Shown piece after piece: positions 9,901 to 60,178 of a stretch of DNA of 64,000 nt (within the stretch, counting starts at the first letter, position 1; the number at the start of each line of letters is the position of its first letter). A program made the translations under genes and the position numbers. The DNA is from Bacteroidota bacterium (GTDB taxonomy: Bacteria; Bacteroidota; JABWAT01). The stretch covers positions 1 through 64,000 of the forward strand of contig JAFLBE010000005.1 in NCBI GenBank assembly GCA_017303995.1, read 5' to 3'. The notes beneath the pieces are model-generated. The model was not told the origin of the DNA. It did not search any database and saw nothing but the letters and a program-made list of their open reading frames with translations.

Positions 9901-10474
9901 TGATGCGTTCGAGATCATGCCGGGTTTGTTCAAGTTTTCGCTGAGATTGTTTCCGGCGGGCTTTGTATTTGGTGACACCGGCAGCTTCTTCGAATAATTT
10001 ACGACGGTCATCATACCGTTCAGAAAGAATATCTTCGATCATCTTCAATTCGATCACCGAATAGGCATCAGGACCCATTCCGGTATCCATAAATAGATCT
10101 ACTATATCTTTCAGGCGGCAGGGAATTTTATTGAGCAGATATTCTGATTCTCCCGAGCGGTAAAGCCGGCGGGTAATGGTGACATCAGTATATTCTGTCG
10201 GGAGGATATTTTTGGTGTTTTCAATCGTCAGGGAAACTTCGGCCATACCGAGCGGTTTTCTCGCACGGGTTCCGTTAAAAATGACGTTTTCCATTTTGTC
10301 GGACCGGAGCGTGGACGCTTTCTGCTCACCCAGCACCCAGCGGATTGCATCAGCAACGTTCGTTTTACCGCACCCGTTCGGACCCACAATTGCGGTAATT
10401 CCCGAATCAAACCTGACGAGGGTTTTCTGTGCAAAACTTTTGAAACCGTGAACTTCGAGTTTACTTAAATACAT
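6938..10474 (-). CDS. smc: Chromosome segregation/condensation ATPase SMC
   Basis: Structural maintenance of chromosomes protein, 1178 residues, the usual length. The ABC-type head is split: Walker A GPNGCGKTNVADAIRWVLGE near residue 33 at the N-terminus, and signature LLSGGEKTLTAIALLFA plus Walker B FCILDEVDAPLDDANIDRF near 1085-1120 at the C-terminus. Between them are two long coiled coils around a hinge at about residues 500-670. It acts with ScpA/ScpB, which are not in the window. It starts 9 bp after the pseudo-GH2 gene and ends overlapping lpxB. Confidence 0.98.
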   Translation of the reverse strand: MYLSKLEVHGFKSFAQKTLVRFDSGITAIVGPNGCGKTNVADAIRWVLGEQKASTLRSDKMENVIFNGTRARKPLGMAEVSLTIENTKNILPTEYTDVTITRRLYRSGESEYLLNKIPCRLKDIVDLFMDTGMGPDAYSVIELKMIEDILSERYDDRRKLFEEAAGVTKYKARRKQSQRKLEQTRHDLERINDIILEVGKTVGSLERQAKKAELYEVYRAELQKMDLEYAEREYAQMNSRLVPLKQQLDQISTEIISLITEIDTQDAAVQRMKADELEMAQALSIKQKEMNQADEEINKTESGISVNRTKKIGLEANIQRFEQEKIETGERLKLLSGEIKQFEDKIANWKSLSDSAETAYTLVQETNKSFETLLADKRKEAGDFNSRLQALNRELTLRQTDQEKARARKDSTQNRIESIRKGLETQAESLDEQTAELDEFRYQLKKSQQALADAEILVKEHTEKLQQFRTLSDDLRSESSALDVEIQARKHRQSFQKSIFESYEGIPEGARFLLKSGALKSKSTFSDVIKLTDESWLPVVTKWLGERSGMLIASNEEDAVSHLNLLKKDKKGLAGFFLLNRVKSEKESALPSVPGAVLLSDLIKTNAEYKGLANLVFWGVYGTDSVADASRLSESYPDFTFLTKEGVVFSDRITVRGGESANEKQSRIGVAEKIAELDNEIESLLAKKSTKEEESQSARQQFEALKKLNPEENLIRLRRETLDLERKSAQIDASIQAGNKRIESEETEIARLSEEVKSLNEHLEELLPEIDEFSYEIKKLQKTHQELVESLTALESEWLQHSRSAQEARAKMVDFQGQLQNAANERNRLLQQDAELNSLIIRRDQEIESSRKSILQIEEEVHQAESRLIELLGQRKEMLGSIEQAEIHVSQKRGDINRTETVLRDIRKKKDESVELGHEMDKKLQDLSIRIETLQIRIREEYAIEMELKSFPDEGEFDLARLGEEARRYRERIKNLGQVNTGALQEYTEQKERYEFMITQRDDLTKAEADLQQIIEEINQTAQLQFQTVFTQIRENFSSTFSTLFEPGDEADLILEDTPDALEAKIEIIAKPRGKRPQSITLLSGGEKTLTAIALLFAIYLVKPSPFCILDEVDAPLDDANIDRFSKIIKRFSADTQFIIITHNKRTMEVAQMMYGVTMEEKGVSKLVSVKFDNEVPV

Positions 10475-13827: not shown

Positions 13828-13857
13828 CAAAGATACAATTCAGGGAACAGGTGACAA
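13828..13857 (-). promoter_or_regulatory. Promoter of nth (TTG-N19-TATCTTTG)
   Basis: Minus-strand TTG (13855-13857) then 19 nt then TATCTTTG (13828-13835), a full match to the Bacteroidota-type consensus. Transcription would begin close to 13823, leaving a leader of only about 18 nt before the chosen nth start. The spacer and the TTG are part of a period-7 repeat tract (13842-13862). Confidence 0.7.
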
Positions 13858-13909
13858 GGGATGAGGGGAATATTTAATGGTTAATTGTAGATGGTCAATG
13901 GTTAATGAA
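13842..13909. repeat. Two period-7 tracts (GGGACAA-type, then AATGGTT-type)
   Basis: 13842-13862 reads as units agggaac/aggtgac/aagggat, and 13875-13909 as taatggt/taattgt/agatggt/caatggt/taatgaa. Both keep an exact 7-bp spacing. The first overlaps the nth promoter. The same heptamer families recur elsewhere in this window. Confidence 0.8.
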
Positions 13910-16100: not shown

Positions 16101-16130
16101 AGCTGTTAGCTGTTGGCTGTTAGCTGTTAG
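16101..16130. repeat. Period-7 tract, AGCTGTT units
   Basis: Four units in perfect register (agctgtt, agctgtt, ggctgtt, agctgtt) begin 7 bp after the stop codon of the activator gene. The same heptamer occurs at 49746 and, inverted, at 28488. Confidence 0.9.
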
Positions 16131-21269: not shown

Positions 21270-21658
21270 GGGCATTCTGATTGGAAAATTCTTAACTCAA
21301 AATACGTGGGGGCTTTCTAAAAAGACAAAATACTGGATCCTGAGTCAAGCTCAGGATGACACAACCTTCGTTATTGATGGTTTTGAGGGGCTGTCATCCC
21401 GGACGTGATCCGGGATCCATACCATTAATTCGGGATTCCTCCCGCTTGCGGGACGGGAATGACAATACTACTGTTATTAATGTCTTGAGAGTTGTCATCC
21501 CCGCGTAGGCGGGCTAACGAAGTTCTGCGGAGCTCATCCAGCATTTTCTCCCAACAAAATCTTCCAGATTATCAGATTCAAATATTGACTATTAAAAAAA
21601 GGAAGTTAACCTTTAGTCTGACTTAGGTTTAAAAGAAAATCACTAATCCGGGTGCAGA
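21270..21658. repeat. Intergenic cluster of TGTCAT-ended mini-elements
   Basis: Three hairpin elements lie in a row with no gene: 21338-21361 (TCCTGAGTCAAGCTCAGGAT then GACA), 21392-21464 (TGTCATCCCGGACGTGATCC ... GGGAATGACA) and 21493-21545 (TGTCATCCCCGCGTAGGCGG followed by a GTTCTGCGGAGCTCATCCA part). The second has terminal inverted repeats TGTCATCCC/GGGAATGACA. Related elements are at 24210, 31444 and 32849. I see no gene between 21546 and 21658. Confidence 0.8.
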
Positions 21659-26767: not shown

Positions 26768-27128
26768 AATGGTTTTTGAATGGTTAATGGAAATATACTT
26801 GGTTTTTGCAACCCCAGAGGGGTGACCTTTGGGTAGAAAACAAACACACCCACACGACCACCGCCCGGCCACAAATGCCTTTGAAACTGGAAAACTCATT
26901 CCGGGCAGAAAAAGACAATTTTCCCGCTGATCGCGCTGATTTACACGGAAAATGCGTTTTTTATCTGGGATAATCAGGATATACAGGATGAGAAAATAAT
27001 TATTAATGTTTAATGATCAATGGTTAATGAATTTCGGGATTTTTCCTAACCCCAGCGCCCAAGACCTTTGGTCGCGGGTTAAAAGGGTGATATCTTGGTA
27101 GAAAAACATCCCAGAACTTACCCACCAA
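26768..27128. repeat. Gene-free composite repeat region
   Basis: It repeats the module order seen at 13875-14160: GAATGG/TAATGG units (26768-26792), ACCCCAGAGGGGTGACC with GGTAGAAAACAAAC (26811-26880), CCCGCTGATCGCGCTGATTT (26923-26942), a period-7 TAATGTT/TAATGAT/CAATGGT/TAATGAA tract (27004-27031), and a second CCCCAGCG copy (27048-27128) interrupted by an extra hairpin with GACCTTTGGTC. No gene is credible here. Confidence 0.75.
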
Positions 27129-28461: not shown

Positions 28462-28515
28462 AACCTTATGCCTTACTTCTTATGCCTAACAGCTAAAAGC
28501 TAATAGCTAACAGCT
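28462..28515. repeat. Period-7 tract switching from GCCTTA-type to AACAGCT units
   Basis: Reads aacctta/tgcctta/cttctta/tgcctaa/cagctaa/aagctaa/tagctaa/cagctt: nearly eight heptamers without a slip. The first half is the family also seen inverted at 30530; the second is the inverse of AGCTGTT at 16101. It ends just after the ABC-F gene's 3' end (minus strand). Confidence 0.9.
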
Positions 28516-28522
28516 TCCCGCC

Positions 28523-30475
28523 CTACTCCTCCAGTTGCGCTGCCAGTTTTTCCCATTTCTTGTACAGCGGTGGAAGTTCTGACTTCAGAGCATCGTATTT
28601 CTTGGAGGATTTCAGCAACTCCTGGGTATTCTTTTTCAAAAAGGATTCTGACGCCATTTCGGCTTCAATTTCTTTGATCTGCTTTTCTTTTTCGGCAATC
28701 TGCTTTTCAAGCGTTGAGAATTCCTTCTTCACACCCTTCAGCGATTCATGCTTCTTCTGGCGCTCTTCAGCTTCCTGACGTTTCATTTCCTTCGATTTGA
28801 AACCGGAGTTCTGATCTTTTTTATCCGATTTTTTCGAAGATTCGGCTTTCACTTCCGCCTGACGTTTTTTCCAGACTCTTTCATAAAATTCAGAGTACGG
28901 ATCAACATAAACTTTGATCTGCTTGTTATCCAGGAAAAACACTTTCGAGGTAATCTGATCGAGGAAATACCGGTCGTGCGAAATGATCAGCAAACTGCCG
29001 TCGAAATCCATCAATGCTTCAATGAGCAGATCTTTCGATTCCATATCAAGGTGATTGGTAGGCTCATCCATGATAATCAGGTTGTGAGCACGAACCAAAA
29101 GTTTGGCCAAAGCAACCCGGGCTTTCTCACCACCCGAGAGCACTTCGATGCGTTTAAAGGCATCATCCCCTTCAAAAAGAAAACAACCCAGCAACGTTCT
29201 CACACGGGTCCGGAATTCAGCCGGAGCCGCTTCGAGAACTTCATCATAAATGGTGGATTGTAAATTGAGCTCTTCAACCTGATGCTGGGCATAATAGCCA
29301 ACCGACACATTCGACCCGATAATCAGATCACCACGTGTTTTAGGCTCCTTCCCGAGAATCATTTTCACCAGGGTGGATTTACCCGAACCGTTCACCCCGG
29401 CGAGTGCGACTTTTTCGCCCCGCTCAAGAATGAAATTAAGGTGATCGAAAAGATGGTTTTCACCAAAAGCTTTTGCAAGATCACGACCTTCAAGAACAAT
29501 CCGACCGGATCGTGGTGCTTCCGGGAAATCGAAATGGATGGATTTTTCCTTGCTGCCAAGTTCAACCCGGTCCATTTTATCCATCAGTTTAATCCGGCTT
29601 TGAACCTGACGTGATTTGGATGCTTTGTACCTGAACCGTTCAACAAACCGGTTTAACTGAGTCAGTTTAGCCTGCTGATTGGCGTATTGGGCTTTAAGAA
29701 TTTCTTCCCGTTTAACTTTATCTTCTTCATAAAAGGTATAGTTTCCGGCATATTCGGTGATTTTCCCGAATTCAATTTCAAGCACACGGTTAACAATCTG
29801 ATCCAGGAAAAATCTATCGTGCGAAATAATAATCAGGGCACCTTCGTACGACTTCAGATAACTTTCAAGCCATTCGAGTGTTTCAAGATCAAGGTGGTTG
29901 GTCGGCTCATCAAGCAACAGATAATCCGGACTTGCACAAAGCAGTTTAGTGATGGCAATCCGCATTCTCCATCCACCTGAAAACTGAGAAACAGGTCGAG
30001 TAAAATCTGACGTTTTGAATCCGAGTCCGCTCAAAATTTCTTCTGCTCGCGTTTTTGCAGTGAATCCGTCTGCAACTTCATATTTATGCTGAAGGTTGCC
30101 ATAATGGTTCAGAATATCTGAGAGATCAGGATTGTTCGTAGCTGAATATTCTTCGATAAGAAGTTCGGTTTTGCGAAGTTCATCTTCGAGACTCATAACT
30201 GAACCGAAGGCGGTGAGAACTTCGTCAATGACCGAAAGATCGCCGGGTGATTGGGCAAAATCCTGCGATAAATAGCCAATTTCGACGCCTTTGGCTTTAT
30301 GGACTTCGCCCTTGTCTGGAAGGATTTCCCCGGTGATCATTTTCATCAGGGTGGATTTGCCTTTACCGTTGGCGCCAACGATGGCAACCCGGTCACGGAC
30401 GGTGAATTGGGCAGAAACGCCCTCGAAAATAACCTGGTGGTTATACTGTAAATGGATGTTGGAAAGTGAAATCAT
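28523..30475 (-). CDS. ABC-F family ATPase (ribosome-associated, YheS/Uup-like)
   Basis: 650 residues with two ABC domains and no membrane segments. Domain 1 has Walker A GANGKGKST, signature FSGGWRMR and Walker B YLLLDEPTNHLDL; domain 2 has GVNGSGKST, LSGGEKARVALAKLL and LIIMDEPTNHLDME. Between them is the charged linker (about 245-310) that reaches the ribosomal peptidyl-transferase area in this family, and the C-terminus is a Lys/Glu-rich coiled coil. ABC-F proteins rescue stalled ribosomes or protect against antibiotics. A near-consensus TATCTTCG (30480-30487) lies just before the ATG. Confidence 0.93.
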   Translation of the reverse strand: MISLSNIHLQYNHQVIFEGVSAQFTVRDRVAIVGANGKGKSTLMKMITGEILPDKGEVHKAKGVEIGYLSQDFAQSPGDLSVIDEVLTAFGSVMSLEDELRKTELLIEEYSATNNPDLSDILNHYGNLQHKYEVADGFTAKTRAEEILSGLGFKTSDFTRPVSQFSGGWRMRIAITKLLCASPDYLLLDEPTNHLDLETLEWLESYLKSYEGALIIISHDRFFLDQIVNRVLEIEFGKITEYAGNYTFYEEDKVKREEILKAQYANQQAKLTQLNRFVERFRYKASKSRQVQSRIKLMDKMDRVELGSKEKSIHFDFPEAPRSGRIVLEGRDLAKAFGENHLFDHLNFILERGEKVALAGVNGSGKSTLVKMILGKEPKTRGDLIIGSNVSVGYYAQHQVEELNLQSTIYDEVLEAAPAEFRTRVRTLLGCFLFEGDDAFKRIEVLSGGEKARVALAKLLVRAHNLIIMDEPTNHLDMESKDLLIEALMDFDGSLLIISHDRYFLDQITSKVFFLDNKQIKVYVDPYSEFYERVWKKRQAEVKAESSKKSDKKDQNSGFKSKEMKRQEAEERQKKHESLKGVKKEFSTLEKQIAEKEKQIKEIEAEMASESFLKKNTQELLKSSKKYDALKSELPPLYKKWEKLAAQLEE

Positions 30476-30529
30476 GGCGCGAAGATAAAAAACGGATGGG
30501 CGTATTCCGAAAGGAAGGACGAAAATCAG

Positions 30530-30585
30530 GCGTAAGGCATAAGGATTAAGGGAAAAGGTTAATTGTGAATGGTTAACGTATAAAG
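30530..30585. repeat. Period-7 tract with two heptamer families in phase
   Basis: Reads gcgtaag/gcataag/gattaag/ggaaaag/gttaatt/gtgaatg/gttaacg/tataaag: eight units, first of GCATAAG type, then of AATGGTT type, with no change of phase. It leads directly into a CCCCTCC repeat. Confidence 0.9.
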
Positions 30586-31443: not shown

Positions 31444-31508
31444 TGGATCCCGGATCAAGTCCGGGATGACAGCTCTGGCAAATCTAACCCCGTACCCCGT
31501 ACCCCGTA
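31444..31508. repeat. TGTCATCC-type half element and CCCCGTA period-7 tract
   Basis: 31444-31471 (TGGATCCCGGATCAAGTCCG then GGATGACA) is the inverse of the left part of the element at 32849. 31488-31508 is three exact ccccgta units; the inverse heptamer occurs at 57851. Confidence 0.85.
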
Positions 31509-31558
31509 CAACGCAAAGCGTGCCCCGCCACCTCTTTACGTCCCCAATCCCGTTCCGG

Positions 31559-32848: not shown

Positions 32849-32937
32849 TGTCATCCCGGACTTGATCCGGGATCCATGCCTTTTAATGCTGGATGAGCTT
32901 CGCAGAACTTCGTTAGCCCGCCTTCGCGGGAATGACA
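32849..32937. repeat. Full TGTCAT-ended composite mini-element
   Basis: Begins TGTCATCCCGGACTTGATCC and ends CGCGGGAATGACA, giving terminal inverted repeats TGTCATCCC/GGGAATGACA. Its left half matches 21392 and 31444; its right half is the inverse of 21493-21545. It holds no coding sequence, so it looks like a non-autonomous mobile or recombination-shuffled element. Confidence 0.85.
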
Positions 32938-32962
32938 GCTTCCTCCTTACTCAAAATAAAAA

Positions 32963-33697: not shown

Positions 33698-36177
33698 AGT
33701 CGGTTTTTCAGGTTTTCAAGGTCCTCACCTTTCATTATTACCGCCGGTTTAAACTCCGCTGGATTTTATGCACCGCCGGTGTGGCAATTGGAGTTGCAGT
33801 GGCAACGTCAATCAACCTTACCAGCGACCGTGCCGTTTATTCCTTCTCAGAAACCCTTGAATCGGTTACCGGTACGGCAAACCTTCAACTTACCGCCGAT
33901 CCGGGTCTGAATCCCGATAGTTTATGGTCGGCCTCCTGGCTCTGGAAAGTGGGTTATTACTCGCCATTTATCCAGACAGCAGGGACTTCAAAAGGCAAAA
34001 CTTACCGGTTGTACGGATTTGATTTTGTCGGCGACCGCCGGATCCGCCAGCTTCAGACGTTGCAAAACGATTCAACAAAAACCACCGTCAATGGCGTTTT
34101 TATTCCTGTCGATTCCCCGTTGGGCAGTGAAGGCGATACCGTCACAATTGTGATTAATGCTGTCCGGTATCAATTGATAATTGCCGGAAAAGTCAGTGCC
34201 ATCAGCGGAAAACTTCCGCCACGAAATGCCATTTTTGCCGATCTTTCACTTTTACTTCCAATCACGAAAACCGTCTCCGGACTCGATATTTCCGTTCCGG
34301 CAGATTCACTTGATTCAGTAAAAAATAAACTTCAGCTTCAGTTCCCCACCGCCAGAATTGAAACTCTGAACGAACGAAAACAAACCACCGCCGAACTGTT
34401 TTCTGCCTTCCGGATGAATTTGCAGGCACTGGGTCTGATTGCCCTTCTGGTTTCGGCGTATCTGGTTTACAACACGCTTTTTCTTTCGGTCATTCAAAGG
34501 CGGCAAACCATCAATCTCTTGCTTTCTCTGGGAAGTCACCGCCGGAGCATTTTCATTGCTTTGCTGGTTGAAGGTGCGTTTTTCGGAACGATTGGCGGAC
34601 TTTTCGGACTTGCCGCCGGGATTCTGCTGGCTTCTTTGACTTATTCGGAAGTTTCACAAACTCTGACCGCCGTTTTTCAGCTTTCTGACAGTCAGCTCAG
34701 TTCCTTTTCGTGGATGGCTCTGGCCGGATCATATCTGACCGGCATCATTTTCGCCACTCTGGCAGCCTGGTATCCGGCATGGCTGGGTTCAGGAACTCCG
34801 ATTTCCCGTTCGCTCAAACGCGGACAAAGTGAATTTTCATCAGCCAGATTGAAAAAATCGGTTATCATTTGCGTTTCTTCCCTTTTGTTGGTTTTATTTT
34901 CTGTCTGGATGGCATCAGTTACTGAAAATCCGCTCTGGGGATATGCAGGCGTTACTTTTTCGATTCTGATGCTGAGTTTTCTTGCGCCTCCGGTTTTGAT
35001 TCTACTCACAAGCCTGCTGAAGAAGCTGTCGTCTGCCGGAGAAATTCTGCTGGCAACCTCGTCGGTGAAAGAGCACATGGTGAAAGTTTCGATTGCCGTT
35101 GCAGCTTTAACTATGACGTTAAGTATGGCCGGTGCCGTCGGGATTATGGTTCACTCCTTCCGGACGACTTTGGATGACTGGTTAACCCGATCGATTGTTG
35201 CCGATATTTATCTCAAATCATCATCCGATCCAACCCAACTTGTCGGAACGATCAATCCGGACGTGATGGCAATTCTAAGAAATCACCCGATGACTGAAAA
35301 TGTGATTACCCTGAGAACAACCCAGATTAAAATTGACGGACTTCTCACTGATATCGGCGCCAACGAAACCTCGGTTTACTTTAAGGCTAGTCCGGCCGAT
35401 CTGGTTGCCGGAAATCCTGAGAATCTAGGACTTCTGCAGAAAAAAGGCGGGGTTGCCGTGAGTGAAGTTTTTGCCAACAAGCACCACCTCACGGCCGGAG
35501 ACACCGTTCACATCCGTCAATATTCCTATCCGATTCTTGCTGTTTACCGGAATTACAGCTCTGACCGTGGATTTTTGCTGATGGATACGCTTCAGTTTTC
35601 TCAGCTTTTCGGATATAAAGATCCGACCGCCGCTGCCGTTTTTCTGAAGCCCGGAATTTCTTCGGAATCTGCCCTTTTAAGTCTAAGAGACTCTCTTAAA
35701 AATTTCGAAATGGATTTATCAGTCAACAAAGACATCAGAGAAAATGCGCTGGCGATTTTTGATCAGACGTTCAGAATGACCCGGATTCTTCAGCTGATTT
35801 CGTTTTTCATTGCTTTACTGGCTGTCATCACAACCCTGAGTTCCATTATTCTTGAGCGACGGAAGGATTTTGCGACTTTGGTCAGTCTGGGAAGTTCTAC
35901 TTTTGGGATGTACCGTTCTCTGGCTATGGAAAGTCTGATTCTCACCGGAACGAGTTTGATTCTGGCTGCCGCCGGAAGCGCTGTGCTTTCTGCCCTGCTG
36001 ATTCAGGTCATCAACCGGTATTCGTTTGGCTGGACGATTGTAACCGATATTCCCTTTGGTGAACTGGCCTTTACCGGTGTTGTGATGATTCTGGTTTCCC
36101 TGATTGCAGCAGCCTTCCCGATGAAAATGATCAAAAAGCTGAATCTACCGGAGAATCTGAAGGGAACGATCGGATAA
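33694..36177 (+). CDS. ABC transporter permease with two FtsX domains (YbbP-like)
   Basis: 827 residues. An N-terminal helix (WILCTAGVAIGVAVATSINL) is followed by a periplasmic domain, an FtsX core of three helices (about 245-370), further helices near 390-440 and 455-480, a second periplasmic domain, and a second FtsX core at the C-terminus (about 690-815). This doubled layout is that of YbbP-type exporters rather than LolC/E or MacB. The substrate is unknown. It is coupled to the ATPase gene. The TAA stop is the first three bases of a period-7 tract. Confidence 0.9.
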   Translation: MKSVFQVFKVLTFHYYRRFKLRWILCTAGVAIGVAVATSINLTSDRAVYSFSETLESVTGTANLQLTADPGLNPDSLWSASWLWKVGYYSPFIQTAGTSKGKTYRLYGFDFVGDRRIRQLQTLQNDSTKTTVNGVFIPVDSPLGSEGDTVTIVINAVRYQLIIAGKVSAISGKLPPRNAIFADLSLLLPITKTVSGLDISVPADSLDSVKNKLQLQFPTARIETLNERKQTTAELFSAFRMNLQALGLIALLVSAYLVYNTLFLSVIQRRQTINLLLSLGSHRRSIFIALLVEGAFFGTIGGLFGLAAGILLASLTYSEVSQTLTAVFQLSDSQLSSFSWMALAGSYLTGIIFATLAAWYPAWLGSGTPISRSLKRGQSEFSSARLKKSVIICVSSLLLVLFSVWMASVTENPLWGYAGVTFSILMLSFLAPPVLILLTSLLKKLSSAGEILLATSSVKEHMVKVSIAVAALTMTLSMAGAVGIMVHSFRTTLDDWLTRSIVADIYLKSSSDPTQLVGTINPDVMAILRNHPMTENVITLRTTQIKIDGLLTDIGANETSVYFKASPADLVAGNPENLGLLQKKGGVAVSEVFANKHHLTAGDTVHIRQYSYPILAVYRNYSSDRGFLLMDTLQFSQLFGYKDPTAAAVFLKPGISSESALLSLRDSLKNFEMDLSVNKDIRENALAIFDQTFRMTRILQLISFFIALLAVITTLSSIILERRKDFATLVSLGSSTFGMYRSLAMESLILTGTSLILAAAGSAVLSALLIQVINRYSFGWTIVTDIPFGELAFTGVVMILVSLIAAAFPMKMIKKLNLPENLKGTIG

Positions 36178-36209
36178 TGGTTAATGGTCAATTGCTAATG
36201 TTGAATGGA
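36175..36209. repeat. Period-7 tract starting on the permease stop codon
   Basis: taatggt/taatggt/caattgc/taatgtt/gaatgga, five units. The first TAA is the stop codon of the permease gene. Same family as 13875, 27004, 44362 and 57947. Confidence 0.9.
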
Positions 36210-41885: not shown

Positions 41886-41920
41886 GTGGTATGTGATACG
41901 TGATAGGTGGTAAGTAGTAG
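41886..41920. repeat. Period-7 tract, GTGATAC type
   Basis: gtggtat/gtgatac/gtgatag/gtggtaa/gtagtag, five units starting 9 bp after the lipoprotein stop. Related units occur at 43121 and, inverted, at 47596. Confidence 0.9.
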
Positions 41921-43228: not shown

Positions 43229-44377
43229 GTGATTTTGAATCCCAAATCCTCATTTTTCACACGCATTGAAACGGAACTTGATGATCTGAAACAGGTCAGC
43301 CGGTTCCGTTCTTTATTTATAGGATCCGGGATTATTCTCTCCGGAAATGATTACCTCAACCTATCCCATCATCCATCCTTAAGAAAAAAAGCAATCGAAC
43401 TGGCCAAAACTGCCGATCTTGCGTCCACCGGAAGCAGATTGCTTGGCGGAAACCATCCGCTGCATGAAGAACTTGAATCTTTAGTTTCTTTCTGGAAAAA
43501 GTCAGAATCTGCACTTCTTTTTAATTCAGGCTACGATGCCAACATGGGCGTTATTCAAACCCTCATCAGGAAAGAAGATATCGTCTTTTCTGATAAACTG
43601 AATCATGCCTGCATCATCGACGGAATCAAAGGAACCGGTGCCGTAACCGAACGGTTTAATCACCAGGATTTCAACGATCTTGAACGGCGTCTGAAAAAAC
43701 ATGAATTCTCCAAAACCGAAAAATTCATTATCGTTGAATCGGTTTATTCGATGGATGGGGATGTTACCGACTTCCCGTCTTTGGTTCAGTTGTGCGAAAA
43801 GTATAACGCCCATCTGATTGTGGATGAAGCCCACGGAACAGGCGTTATCGGGCAAACCGGCGCCGGTGTTCTGGAACGTGATGGATTGATGAATTATCCG
43901 CTGGCAACGATCCACACCTGTGGCAAAGCACTGGGGACTTTTGGTGCTTTTGTTTCCTGCAGGAAATCAGTCCGTGATTATCTGGTTAACAAATGCCGCA
44001 ATTTTATTTTCACAACCGCCCTTCCCCCGTGGCAGGCCGGTTTGATTGCTGAAGCCATTCGGCTTGTTCAGCCCATGACCGCTGAACGTGACTATCTCAT
44101 GAAGCTGTCAGCAGATTTCAGAAAACTGGTGGCAGAGAAAACAAAGTGGTCAACCGGAAATTCAAAAACCATGATCGTTCCCGTGATTATTGGTGAAGAT
44201 TCTGAGGCTGTAAAAATTGCCTCTTTTTGCCGGGATGCCGGGTTTGACGTCAGGGCAGTACGTCCGCCAACCGTTCCCGAAGGAACATCACGCCTCAGGT
44301 TAAGTTTTCATGCCGGAATTCAGATTGCCGACATGGAAAAACTGGCGGAATTGCTTACCAAAATGGTCAATGGTTAA
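43229..44377 (+). CDS. bioF: 8-Amino-7-oxononanoate synthase (or related alpha-oxoamine synthase)
   Basis: PLP-dependent enzyme that condenses pimeloyl thioester with alanine in biotin synthesis. 382 residues of the oxoamine synthase family: STGSRLLGGNHPLHEELE, the PLP-binding VDEAHGTGVIG, and the Schiff-base Lys in HTCGKALGTFGAF near residue 232. The close relative Kbl cannot be excluded by sequence, but bioB upstream favours BioF. The start is GTG at 43229 or TTG at 43235; no ATG gives a full N-terminus. The last codons and stop lie inside a period-7 repeat. Confidence 0.88.
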   Translation: MILNPKSSFFTRIETELDDLKQVSRFRSLFIGSGIILSGNDYLNLSHHPSLRKKAIELAKTADLASTGSRLLGGNHPLHEELESLVSFWKKSESALLFNSGYDANMGVIQTLIRKEDIVFSDKLNHACIIDGIKGTGAVTERFNHQDFNDLERRLKKHEFSKTEKFIIVESVYSMDGDVTDFPSLVQLCEKYNAHLIVDEAHGTGVIGQTGAGVLERDGLMNYPLATIHTCGKALGTFGAFVSCRKSVRDYLVNKCRNFIFTTALPPWQAGLIAEAIRLVQPMTAERDYLMKLSADFRKLVAEKTKWSTGNSKTMIVPVIIGEDSEAVKIASFCRDAGFDVRAVRPPTVPEGTSRLRLSFHAGIQIADMEKLAELLTKMVNG

Positions 44378-44396
44378 TTGTTAATGGTAAATAGAA
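44362..44396. repeat. Period-7 tract overlapping the 3' end of bioF
   Basis: aatggtc/aatggtt/aattgtt/aatggta/aatagaa, five units. The first two encode the last residues of BioF (MVNG) and the stop codon, so the tract is partly coding. Confidence 0.9.
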
Positions 44397-44463
44397 AGCC
44401 TTAGTCTTGTTTTGAATATTGTCTTGTCCTGAATTTGGTTGACTAATTTTAGTGAAATTCAGA

Positions 44464-45360
44464 TTAACCAATTAACTGAAGTGTTTTTTTGTTTTTAGGT
44501 TTATAATAATTTTTCCAGGTTCGTTTTAATTCACCAACACACAAGTGTGCCTGAACCGGAGTTTTATTTTCAATACTTCTATGAGGACGGATTTTGTTAT
44601 AAAAATCGATGACTTTTGGCAGTTCTTTTTGTGCTTCTGCCAACGTTCGATAAGTTAAATCTGCATTGTCATCAAATTCACCCTTAAGTATTCCATTAAC
44701 CCGTTCTGCAATCGAATTTTCAAGTGGATCACCGGACTGGGTCATGCTGATTTTCATCTTTTTCTTGTTTAAAAGTTTTGTGTATGCATGACAACAGTAT
44801 TGAATTCCACGGTCCGAGTGATGAATGCAATCTTTCAGTTCTTCCTTTGGTGATTGTTTTATTGCCATTTTTAACGCTTTTATCGTTCCTTCTGCAGCTA
44901 AACTCTCACTTAAAAAATGACCCAATATTTTTCTCGAATACTGATCTGTAATCAGGGACAGATAGGCAAATTCATCTGTTTCCTTTAGCCGGATATAGGT
45001 AATATCTGACACCCAAACTGCATTTGCCCGTATCGGAGTTAAGTGCTGGATCAGATTGCTATATTTATGATAATGGTGATAACTATTTGTCGTTATAGCC
45101 CGATTTCGCTTCCGGTTGATCAATAGATCATTATTCCGCAAAATATCAAAGAACTTATCCCGCCCAAAGGACAGTTGGTGAGAGGTAAACTCAGCTCTCA
45201 GCGAGGTAAATAAATTCCTTCCGCTGCCCCGTTTCCATAGCTGACGTTTTTTCCTTACAAGATCAACAACCAGAAGTTCATTCATTTCCTGTCTGGCCTG
45301 ACCCTTGAGCACTTTGTAGTACCCTTGCTTGCTTTTTCCCAGCATTCCGCACAAATCCAC
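44464..45360 (-). CDS. IS3-family transposase OrfB (DDE integrase)
   Basis: 298 residues. An HTH_21-type N-terminal part is followed by an rve integrase core. The DDE triad can be placed: Asp in WVSDITYIRL, Asp in IHHSDRGIQYCC, Glu in PLENSIAERVNG. The end is the usual FYNKIRPHRSIENKTP. It begins with GTG overlapping the orfA stop and lies in the -1 frame relative to orfA. In this family OrfAB is made by -1 frameshifting; an A-rich run (AAAACAAAACGAAAATAG) lies just before the orfA stop. The gene is intact. Confidence 0.95.
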   Translation of the reverse strand: MDLCGMLGKSKQGYYKVLKGQARQEMNELLVVDLVRKKRQLWKRGSGRNLFTSLRAEFTSHQLSFGRDKFFDILRNNDLLINRKRNRAITTNSYHHYHKYSNLIQHLTPIRANAVWVSDITYIRLKETDEFAYLSLITDQYSRKILGHFLSESLAAEGTIKALKMAIKQSPKEELKDCIHHSDRGIQYCCHAYTKLLNKKKMKISMTQSGDPLENSIAERVNGILKGEFDDNADLTYRTLAEAQKELPKVIDFYNKIRPHRSIENKTPVQAHLCVGELKRTWKNYYKPKNKKTLQLIG

Positions 45361-45809
45361 TATTTTCGTTTTGTTTTGCGCTTCTTTGAATCGTTGGATG
45401 GCGGGGCACCAGACTTTTTTTTTATTTCAATTCCAAATTTCTCTTCCGCTACCTCTACAAGGGTCTGCCAGAGGCCACTTCTCATTTTCTCATGTTCCAA
45501 TTGGCGTTCCAACTCAGCTATCCGTTGTTGTAATGCCAATTTTTCAGCTTTTTCTTCTTGTGTCTTCATTTCAGACAAAGGTAAGCAAATACTCTGTCTA
45601 TTTAATTCTCCGCTGAATTGACGAATCCAGTAAAGTATACTGCTTTTTCCTTTTATTCCGTACAAACGACGAGCCGCTTCCTTTGAATACAAGCCGGATG
45701 TTACATCCGATATTACCTGCCTTTTAAACGTCTCGCTGTAGTAAACCGGCCGTTGATGGTTCATGTTTTGTCCTGTTTTTAGTTGACTTTTTTCTGTTCT
45801 TAGAGTCAA
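45360..45809 (-). CDS. IS3-family transposase OrfA
   Basis: 149 residues. A helix-turn-helix at the N-terminus (YSETFKRQVISDVTSGLYSK, then EAARRLYGIKGKSSILYWIR) is followed by a coiled coil (ALQQRIAELERQLEHEKM), as is normal for OrfA. The basic C-terminus (KKRKTKRK) runs into the putative frameshift site. It binds the terminal repeats and regulates transposition. Confidence 0.93.
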   Translation of the reverse strand: MTLRTEKSQLKTGQNMNHQRPVYYSETFKRQVISDVTSGLYSKEAARRLYGIKGKSSILYWIRQFSGELNRQSICLPLSEMKTQEEKAEKLALQQRIAELERQLEHEKMRSGLWQTLVEVAEEKFGIEIKKKSGAPPSNDSKKRKTKRK

Positions 45810-45828
45810 CCTATTTTAGGACAAGACA

Positions 45829-45912
45829 TATCCCCCTTTGAAGACGAAGATCCCGAATTCCTTCGGGAGGGGAAATCCGGCATTCGCCGGAAGGGGGATG
45901 TTGCGAGTTGTT
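45829..45912. repeat. CCCCCTTTGAAG repeat with nested hairpins
   Basis: Starts CCCCCTTTGAAGACGAAGAT, holds the hairpins TCCCGAATTCCTTCGGGA and CCGGCATTCGCCGG, and ends AAGGGGGATG. It is a variant of 36291-36338 with different inserts. The IS3 element ends exactly at its border. Confidence 0.75.
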
Positions 45913-47013: not shown

Positions 47014-47034
47014 AGTTACAAGTTGTAAGTTATA
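47014..47034. repeat. Short period-7 tract, AGTTACA type
   Basis: agttaca/agttgta/agttata, then a slightly broken atagtta/caagtca. It starts 4 bp after a stop codon. Confidence 0.7.
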
Positions 47035-47084
47035 ATAGTTACAAGTCAGGTGAAAAATAGTTTAGTCTAATTGAAATCAAGAAA

Positions 47085-47530: not shown

Positions 47531-47678
47531 GGTGACAAGGGACAGGGGACAAGTGACTGAAATTCCAGTTACAGCCTGTCCCGCTACTGCGGGAGGTCAC
47601 AAATCACATATCACGGGTTGAATTCCCGATAAAGAAAATTCCCCATTGTTAACTGACTCCTGTCTTCTGACTTCTGAC
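47531..47678. repeat. Three period-7 tracts in one intergenic gap
   Basis: 47531-47558 ggtgaca/agggaca/ggggaca/agtgact; 47596-47616 gtcacaa/atcacat/atcacgg (inverse GTGATAT type); 47651-47678 aactgac/tcctgtc/ttctgac/ttctgac (inverse GTCAGAA type). Between them is a GTCCCGCTACTGCGGGA hairpin. Three families therefore lie within 150 bp. Confidence 0.9.
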
Positions 47679-47697
47679 TACTTTTCAAGGATAAAAA

Positions 47698-49745: not shown

Positions 49746-49878
49746 AGCTATTAGCTATTAGCTTTTGGCTGTTGGGCAATGCAATTCAAGGCAGAAGGAA
49801 TAAGATTTAAGGCGTAGGGTAAAAGTAAAAAGATTAAAAACTCAAGGGTAAATTTAAAAGGATAAAGGTTCAATGTTT
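49746..49878. repeat. Longest period-7 tract, 19 units, families in phase
   Basis: Starts agctatt/agctatt/agctttt/ggctgtt, passes through gggcaat/gcaattc, and continues aaggcag/aaggaat/aagattt/aaggcgt/agggtaa and eight further AAGG- or AAAG-like units to aatgttt. The phase is kept over 133 bp. It begins 11 bp after the GH27 stop. Confidence 0.85.
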
Positions 49879-57850: not shown

Positions 57851-57972
57851 GGGGTACGCTTTACGTAGTACGGGGTACGTTTCTGGAGAAAGCGCCGGTC
57901 ACCGAGTTCAGTCGCCGGTTGATTATCGAGGTGCCCGGTTGAAAACAATTTACCATTTACCATTATCCCTAA
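57851..57972. repeat. Two convergent period-7 tracts around a GGTCACCGAG repeat
   Basis: 57851-57878 ggggtac/gctttac/gtagtac/ggggtac starts 5 bp after the orphan's stop. 57947-57972, read on the minus strand, is gttaggg/ataatgg/taaatgg/taaattg and begins at the feoB stop codon. Between them (57894-57940) is a GGTCACCGAGTTCAGTCGCC-type repeat. Each tract therefore starts at the 3' end of the gene next to it. Confidence 0.85.
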
Positions 57973-60136: not shown

Positions 60137-60178
60137 GGAGCAAATTTTTAATGTTAAATTTTGAATTTTAAATTAAGA

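Follow-up and report, generated by a model that had tools for sequence, protein, structure and literature searches.

Intergenic heptamer arrays of a Bacteroidota bacterium as probable arms of hairpin elements related to the 23S rRNA intervening sequence

The window analysed here comprises 64,000 nucleotides of DNA from a Bacteroidota bacterium (lineage JABWAT01; assembly GCA_017303995.1, contig JAFLBE010000005.1, positions 1 to 64,000), and its intergenic regions contain arrays of consecutive heptamers built from several different words. We propose, with a probability of roughly 0.7, that such arrays are terminal inverted repeats, or arms, of small hairpin elements that form one family and are akin to the intervening sequence (IVS) of 23S rRNA. 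A complete copy would consist of a 7-periodic arm (G>C or AG-rich on the 5′ side), an open reading frame (ORF) of the S23/IVP family (PF05635) and an inverted 7-periodic arm, and would occupy the gap that separates the stop codon of one gene from its neighbour. The observations behind this proposal are the period itself, the polarity and inverted pairing of the arrays, their association with IVP genes in two phyla and on one Azospirillum plasmid, the insertion of arms and gene as a whole unit at three sites, and a word and inner end common to window arrays and a complete element.

Period, polarity and pairing of the arrays

Arrays were called as runs of lag-k identity in intergenic DNA, scored at each lag k, and the autocorrelation of the window was compared with dinucleotide shuffles. 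The intergenic DNA of the window shows lag-7 autocorrelation with z = 8.8 (z = 6.0 at lag 14 and 3.3 at lag 21), an excess that is absent from its coding DNA. It holds 14 lag-7 arrays, compared with 0.13 expected, and 0–1 at any other lag that is not a multiple of 7; the 55.8 kb of coding DNA holds one. The source genome (G000) is a 4.31 Mb draft in 127 contigs, and its genome-wide figures come from sampled stretches totalling 754 kb, which contain 78 arrays in 55.9 kb of intergenic DNA, compared with two in one shuffle and at most seven at each other lag that is not a multiple of 7. An unbiased sample of the genome, with 8.7 kb of intergenic DNA, gave 15 arrays, and a 50 kb control from E. 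coli K-12 gave none. The first-pass annotation of the window, made from the sequence alone, had proposed an exact 7 bp intergenic period, common to several words on either strand, at about 20 loci, to be checked by autocorrelation. The period stands in both the window and the genome sample, as do the variety of words and their use on either strand throughout the genome. Of the loci listed, 17 of 20 are significant at P ≤ 0.003, while those at 57851 (P = 0.016), 13842 (P = 0.054) and 48305 (P = 0.16) are weak. 'Exact' was too strong a word, as the units match at 66–100%: these are tandem, degenerate 7-nt repeats at many loci, as expected of intergenic heptanucleotide repeats. AAGTTAT, AATGGTT, AAGTTAC, AGCTGTT, AAGTGAC, AAGTCAG and AAGTGGT each occur in 6–10 intergenic regions, and neighbouring units are slightly more similar than distant ones (0.851 falling to 0.795).

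The arrays lie very close to genes, with a median of 9 nt between the array edge and the nearest gene, and a stop codon often lies inside the array (for example TAA followed by TGGTTAATGG, or TAA followed by GTTATAAG). Their density is highest between convergent genes and amounts to 0.58 per kb between divergent genes, compared with 1.6–2.3 elsewhere. They are also polar: on the side of the left gene G exceeds C and AG exceeds CT, and on the side of the right gene the complement holds (G/C 71:12, p = 2e-11), independently of gene strand, with no such strand skew in intergenic regions without arrays. Most of the words found here are unable to form G-quadruplexes, which rules such structures out as the cause of this polarity. 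A simple G-skew was discarded as a universal polarity marker, as it fails in the Saprospiraceae arms described below, where AG/AAG performs better. An inverted partner of the same word (inverted match of at least 18) was found for 8 of 85 arrays, compared with 1.2% of pairs drawn from other array-bearing regions; in the pair at 9968/10097 of locus L104, 27 bases match and the order of the variant units is mirrored. Arm-to-arm pairing as a general property of the source genome was rejected, as it holds for a minority only.

Heptad arms of IVP elements

One inverted pair of the source genome encloses a small ORF (G000:C40:78715-79092) that matches 23S_rRNA_IVP (PF05635) with E = 5e-36, and that also has a weak bAvd match below the cut-off of that family. 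We searched 26 Bacteroidota genomes, 23 of which gave a match, and scanned the flanks (up to 200 bp) of the resulting 69 IVP loci together with those of 537 control ORFs of similar size, taken from 80 loci of the phylum, mostly in other genomes. Arrays are present in either flank at 42 of the 69 IVP loci compared with 34 of the 537 controls (p = 8e-26), and in both flanks at 25 compared with two (p = 9e-24). Inverted flank copies (score of at least 15), i.e. complementary terminal arms able to form a stem, occur at 31 of the 69 loci, compared with 0.4% of mismatched flanks and 2 of the 537 controls. Stricter controls, taken within genomes, agree: in G001 and G003, two congeners of the source genome in which arrays are otherwise rare, both arms are present at four of seven IVP genes and at none of 68 controls, and in the source genome itself, which has five flanked IVP copies (L211, L233, L239, L240 and L242), 2 of 144 control ORFs have arrays in both flanks. 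The IVP flanks also share the period of the solitary arrays (lag 7 in 35 upstream and 32 downstream flanks of the 69, other lags that are not multiples of 7 in at most nine) and their polarity (G>C upstream, 34:6; C>G downstream, 29:7).

The words at the IVP genes of the source genome (AGCTATT, AGTTATA and AGAAGGT) recur among its solitary arrays. In addition, AGCTNTT arms have a conserved inner end, (A/G)GGTAAT(T/A), which is found at position 16101 of the window, at several other loci and in both arms of the L211 IVP element, and with one change at position 49746. The common word and inner end therefore make at least the AGCTGTT family of the window relatives of a complete IVP element. For the other words of the window a link to IVP elements is suggested solely by period, polarity, position and word sharing. 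Heptad arms are common at IVP genes and not their sole type, as L255, L263, L274 and L231 have long inverted flanks without a 7 bp period (a 13 bp unit in L231). At L218 (G001:C24), 27–240 nt downstream of the IVP gene, a CTGACTT array occurs three times with an exact 91 bp spacing, a higher-order repeat of arm plus spacer.

IVP genes on plasmids belong mostly to heterocystous cyanobacteria, from which short tandemly repeated repetitive (STRR) heptanucleotides are known, repeats that have been described without a gene or mobility partner. Our set comprises 16 loci, 15 of them cyanobacterial and one from Azospirillum. A lag-7 array is present upstream in 13 of the 16 and downstream in 15, with inverted scores of 10–26 (the words include AGCTGTT in Calothrix and GTCAGGA/GTCAGAA in Nostoc), and 50 kb of a Trichormus plasmid outside its IVP locus contains no array. 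Instead of a 23S rRNA helix, the plasmid loci occupy positions between protein genes, and the Bacteroidota IVP loci that we examined occupy short intergenic gaps.

At three Nostocales plasmid sites both filled and empty alleles were found. The empty form of site 1 reads AAAAAGTAATTAACAAATAAATATG in plasmids of Nostoc linckia and Tolypothrix; the Trichormus plasmid is about 428 bp longer and reads AAAAAGTAAT, then AAATCAGAATTCAGAAGTCAG..., the IVP gene, ...CTGACTCCTGAGTTCTTCTTTGTAAT, then TAACAAATAAATATG. At the same site Brasilonema has an ORF-less element, its arms being of the same type, and Nostoc C052 retains a remnant of a truncated IVP. Sites 2 and 3 belong to a single Nostoc operon, in which they mark separate stop/start junctions. 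Some plasmids have an IVP element there and others do not, and the arm words of the two sites differ (GTCAGGA and GGGAAAA); the empty junction of site 3 is an overlapping TAATG. The three empty alleles have no heptads, and the neighbouring ORFs are intact in the filled ones. Arms and IVP gene have thus been inserted together at these three sites, as a single unit placed after a stop codon and ahead of the start codon that follows, in the manner of a mobile element. IVP elements (L279, L286 and L290) also lie inside CRISPR operons of cyanobacterial plasmids (cas10/cmr3-family gene; cas6/cas4). A search for ABC-F proteins in the plasmids returned nothing useful.

ORF-less copies with both arms are found in two Saprospiraceae metagenome-assembled genomes (G041 and G042), as near-perfect intergenic palindromes of about 135 bp in which heptad arms (AGTCCTG/AGTCCTA/AGTCGTA) surround a conserved core. 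There are at least 85 matches in each genome, where one palindrome can match on both strands, and one IVP gene lies between two complete ORF-less palindromes. The order of the units varies between copies and is mirrored between the arms of one copy (arm identity 0.948 within copies compared with 0.88 between them). Either fold-back copying or selection for pairing thus keeps the two arms of a Saprospiraceae copy alike; we claim in-cis homogenisation for these copies only, with selection for pairing as the alternative. Such palindromes, at L043 (3933–4067, 12254–12442 and 13738–13871) and L023 (4144–4291), have fold energies of about -100 to -150 kcal/mol, and some lie between divergent genes, with TAnnTTTG-like motifs bounding both sides.

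Origin of the solitary arrays and known repeats

The source genome and its congener G002, whose gene ends are about 88% identical, have 116 intergenic regions in common, with arrays in both genomes in 23, in neither in 86 and in one only in seven (p = 2e-17); the word differs at 17 of 29 same-side array pairs. G002 also contains a long pure run, AAGTCAG ×14. Per 10 kb of intergenic DNA, there are about 14 arrays in the source genome, 4.8 in G001 and 3.3 in G003. Triple AGTTAYA arrays give 41 matches in the source genome, 26 in G002, none in G001 or G003, and 1–2 in four of the other 144 genomes of the phylum. G079, put forward by a control count as a genome with another heptamer, was rejected, as 100 kb of it contained no arrays. 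The L211 IVP interval measures about 758 bp in the source genome and 193 bp, without the IVP gene, in G002, and its ends are too rearranged for the junction to be read. Concerted in-place change of the arm words between congeners was set aside: at C40:78715 the IVP gene is 72% identical over a partial match and its flank 92%, and whole-element replacement or re-insertion at a hot spot is therefore at least as likely. Repetitive extragenic palindromic (REP)-like families (GGATCCCGGATCAAGTCCGGGATGACA, CACTGAGCGGAGTCGAAGTGCCC and AAGTCGAGCGAAGCGAAGATCCCG...CGGG) occur at 21270–21658 and 32849–32940 of the window and at about 50 places in G000 and G002, some of them inside heptad arrays; their matches number 47 in the source genome, 51 in G002 and two each in G001 and G003, and the source genome has seven Y1_Tnp matches.

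If the solitary arrays are arms of IVP-type hairpin elements, most copies in the source genome would lack the ORF or be reduced to one eroded arm, with REP-like palindromes overlying them, and ORF-less copies would outnumber complete ones. Each heptamer word would represent one arm family rather than a free-running product of 7-nt copying, while slippage would lengthen and shorten the arms 7 nt at a time. Either of the processes considered for the Saprospiraceae palindromes would hold both arms of a copy alike, the RNA stem may be cut by RNase III, by analogy with the Coxiella IVS, and the IVP may help in binding or mobility. Reuse of a site or exchange of elements could explain why the same place carries different words.

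Several observations weigh against this proposal, the main weakness of which is the step from IVP elements that carry such arms to about 450 solitary arrays deriving from such elements. The source genome has six IVP matches (one weak and unflanked) against those roughly 450 arrays, an extrapolated figure; none of the window's arrays adjoins an IVP gene, and most arrays of the source genome have no same-word inverted partner. Conversely, no lag-7 array could be detected at 27 of the 69 IVP loci of Bacteroidota. For the source genome no empty/filled pair with a clean junction was obtained, and at the plasmid sites the target duplications are short and variable (GTAAT; ATTCTAA; ATG). The Saprospiraceae arms break the G>C skew, yet obey the AG rule. 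Finally, no motif of a nuclease or transposase is recognised in the IVP, and reverse transcriptase (RVT_1) is absent from G001, G002 and G041, for which reason mobility driven by a reverse transcriptase, an idea prompted by the weak bAvd match, was rejected.

The alternatives fare less well. Neutral replication slippage with a preferred 7-nt step in unconstrained intergenic DNA, without any element, would account for the specificity of lag 7, the long pure runs, the slightly greater likeness of adjacent units and the array at position 49746, where the word is the same in both congeners and AGCTATT is present in two copies in the source genome and in three in G002. This exact 7 bp difference, obtained from the comparison of the same locus in a relative that the first-pass annotation had called for, is in line with the 7-nt copying or slippage step supposed there. 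It is however the single unit-step change seen, and slippage predicts neither the 71:12 orientation rule, the mirrored inverted arms, the IVP association, the whole-unit insertions with their empty sites, nor the lack of arrays in the Trichormus plasmid away from its IVP gene. The IVP data thus contradict slippage as a sufficient cause, and we regard it as an unlikely explanation on its own, although it may well be the way in which arms grow. A regulatory or RNA-binding role, in which a protein reads heptamers at gene ends (compare the TAACTGA repeats of Beggiatoaceae), agrees with the conservation of sites between congeners and with their location beside stop and start codons. Nevertheless, the words differ at 17 of 29 sites despite the identity of about 88% at gene ends, so that no fixed sequence is maintained, and the arrays are depleted at divergent promoters; we find such a role improbable.

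The arrays could instead be targets, if heptad palindromes arose independently and IVP elements preferred them for insertion. Hot spots that are common to congeners with different words, and the Saprospiraceae IVP gene lodged between two complete ORF-less palindromes, are what this would produce, whereas the three empty alleles contain no heptads, the arms coming with the gene, and array-poor genomes still have arms at their IVP genes; the probability of this explanation is equally low. Least probable of all, to the point that we give it very little weight, is that the arrays are parts of transcription terminators or of palindromes of the REP/bacterial interspersed mosaic element (BIME) type spread by Y1 (REP-associated) transposases. 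The density peak between convergent genes, and the REP-like palindromes and Y1_Tnp matches, often in or beside arrays, would fit; the REP units, however, have their own sequences without a 7 bp period, arrays are also found just before start codons and between divergent genes, and the cyanobacterial plasmid IVP arms occur without such REPs.

The first-pass annotation took a multi-word heptamer system to be undescribed in this kind of genome, which does not hold, since multi-word intergenic heptamers have already been published for cyanobacteria, Xanthomonas, Beggiatoaceae and five Bacteroidetes (PMC4679880, PMC4692102). A 7-nt polymerase-slippage idea is also in print; PMC4692102 reports it in the polymerase-footprint version of Mrazek 2007. 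Both IVS elements and heptamer repeats were known before; it is their link that appears to be new, as we found no paper in the open-access literature that joins the two beyond a remark on Coxiella. There, 2–3 GACAGAT heptamers, in a number that varies between strains, precede the S23 ORF of the 23S rRNA IVS, and the stem is cut by RNase III (PMC4990558). The IVSs of Coxiella and Leptospira resemble our elements in having an S23p/IVP ORF in a loop and complementary arms that form a long stem (PMC4990558), with the Coxiella heptamers beside the ORF; the elements described here differ in being intergenic between protein genes, in having 7-periodic arrays of many words as arms, and in occurring as hundreds of ORF-less copies per genome. 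The STRRs of heterocystous cyanobacteria are likewise degenerate tandem 7-nt units in intergenic DNA, with several words per genome, and the plasmid IVP arms are such heptamers; the introduction of PMC4692102 describes STRRs as repeats without a gene or mobility partner, whereas here they are tied to IVP elements, and in Bacteroidota too. GGGNATC and GGGGAYT heptamers are known from Xanthomonas and Nostoc, and Rehm et al. report the same strand rule for G-rich heptamers (PMC4692102); our words are mostly not quadruplex formers. The only solved relative of the IVP that we found by sequence, XCC0516 (PDB entry 2GSC), comes from one of these genera (Xanthomonas campestris) and gives the IVP fold, a four-helix bundle that is assembled in this relative into a five-fold ring. 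TAACTGA direct repeats have been reported from Beggiatoaceae, cyanobacteria and five Bacteroidetes (PMC4679880). They too are heptamer repeats near start codons, and the AGTTATC arrays of Saprospiraceae L043 repeat this word on the opposite strand. However, TAACTGA is not the favoured word here (AAGTTAT, AATGGTT, AAGTTAC, AGCTGTT and others dominate, the main words being at least one base away), and paired arms and an IVP element were not recognised in that system. Miniature inverted-repeat transposable element (MITE)-like palindromes and REP/BIME units are also short, multicopy intergenic inverted repeats without an ORF; the elements proposed here differ in having arms of slippable heptads, the IVP as partner instead of a known transposase, and no clear constant target duplication.

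More tentatively, and at somewhat less than even odds, the heptamers of cyanobacteria, Xanthomonas, Beggiatoaceae and Bacteroidota could all be arms of one widespread, horizontally moving class of S23/IVP hairpins, of which the rRNA IVS would be the special case in 23S rRNA. The IVP may wrap AG-type heptads around its five-fold ring, and the protein, not the polymerase, would then set the unit length. The main proposal, that the arrays are arms of IVP-type elements, would provide intergenic heptamer repeats, listed for decades in several phyla without explanation, with an origin and a partner gene, would explain their strand rule, and would make the S23/IVP protein, which has a solved fold and no known function, the likely handle of a mobile hairpin element. 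It also renders the question testable, as public genomes can be surveyed for IVP flanks, filled and empty sites and 7-mer density, and arms can be assayed as IVP ligands and RNase III substrates.

Arrays of the window

Table 1. Heptad arrays of the window, with their strand and surroundings
Array	Position	Strand	Remarks
Weak AG/G-type heptad stretch AGGGAACAGGTGACAAGGGATGAGGGG	13842–13868	+	Just past gene boundary 13838; lag-7 P = 0.054
AATGGTT family, left-arm polarity	13874–13907	+	
AGCTGTT family	16101–16130	+	6 nt past stop codon; inner end GGTAATTC as in IVP element L211 arms; same word in G002
AATGGTT family	26997–27030	+	Near-identical array in G002
Right arm, AAGGCAT-type then AGCTGTT-type	28462–28515	-	7 nt from gene at 28523; G002 word differs
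AGGCRTA	30528–30551	+	AATGGTT word at same site in G002
GTACGGG/ACGGGGT	31487–31509	-	ACTTATA-type word in orthologous G002 intergenic region
AATGGTT	36172–36208	+	Includes stop codon TAA of gene ending 36177
GTGGTAT/GTGATAC	41886–41919	+	After stop codon
GGGACAA	43053–43089	+	6 nt past stop; AGTTACA word in G002; 18 bp intergenic region without array in G001
AATGGTT/AATGGTC	44362–44392	+	Includes stop codon of gene ending 44377
AGTTACA/AGTTATA	47014–47046	+	Between stop 47010 and start 47085; AGTGGTA ×6 in G002
GGGACAA, left arm	47534–47557	+	Identical in G002
Short GTGATAT-type heptads	47597–47614	-	Inner, C-rich on +
CTGACTT (AAGTCAG on minus strand), right arm	47653–47682	-	Just upstream of start 47698; CTACTAA word in G002
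AGCTATT/AGCTGTT, left arm	49746–49775	+	10 nt past GH27 gene stop; inner end GGGCAAT like other family members
Degenerate AAGGCGT/AAGGNNN heptads prolonging the 49746 array	49790–49870	+	Read by eye, unscored
GGGGTAC-type, left arm, weak	57851–57880	+	After stop 57845; P = 0.016
AATGGTA, right arm	57945–57964	-	Just before stop of convergent gene; intergenic region 13 bp here in G001
AAATTTT/AATGTT	60143–60174	+	
GTCAGAA	60176–60205	+	Exception to polarity rule: AG-type beside right gene

The alignment of G002 with the window jumps from 44416 to 45831, and what is missing from the orthologous position in G002 is a two-ORF insertion sequence with an rve integrase (44464–45809), which in the window adjoins an AATGGTT array.
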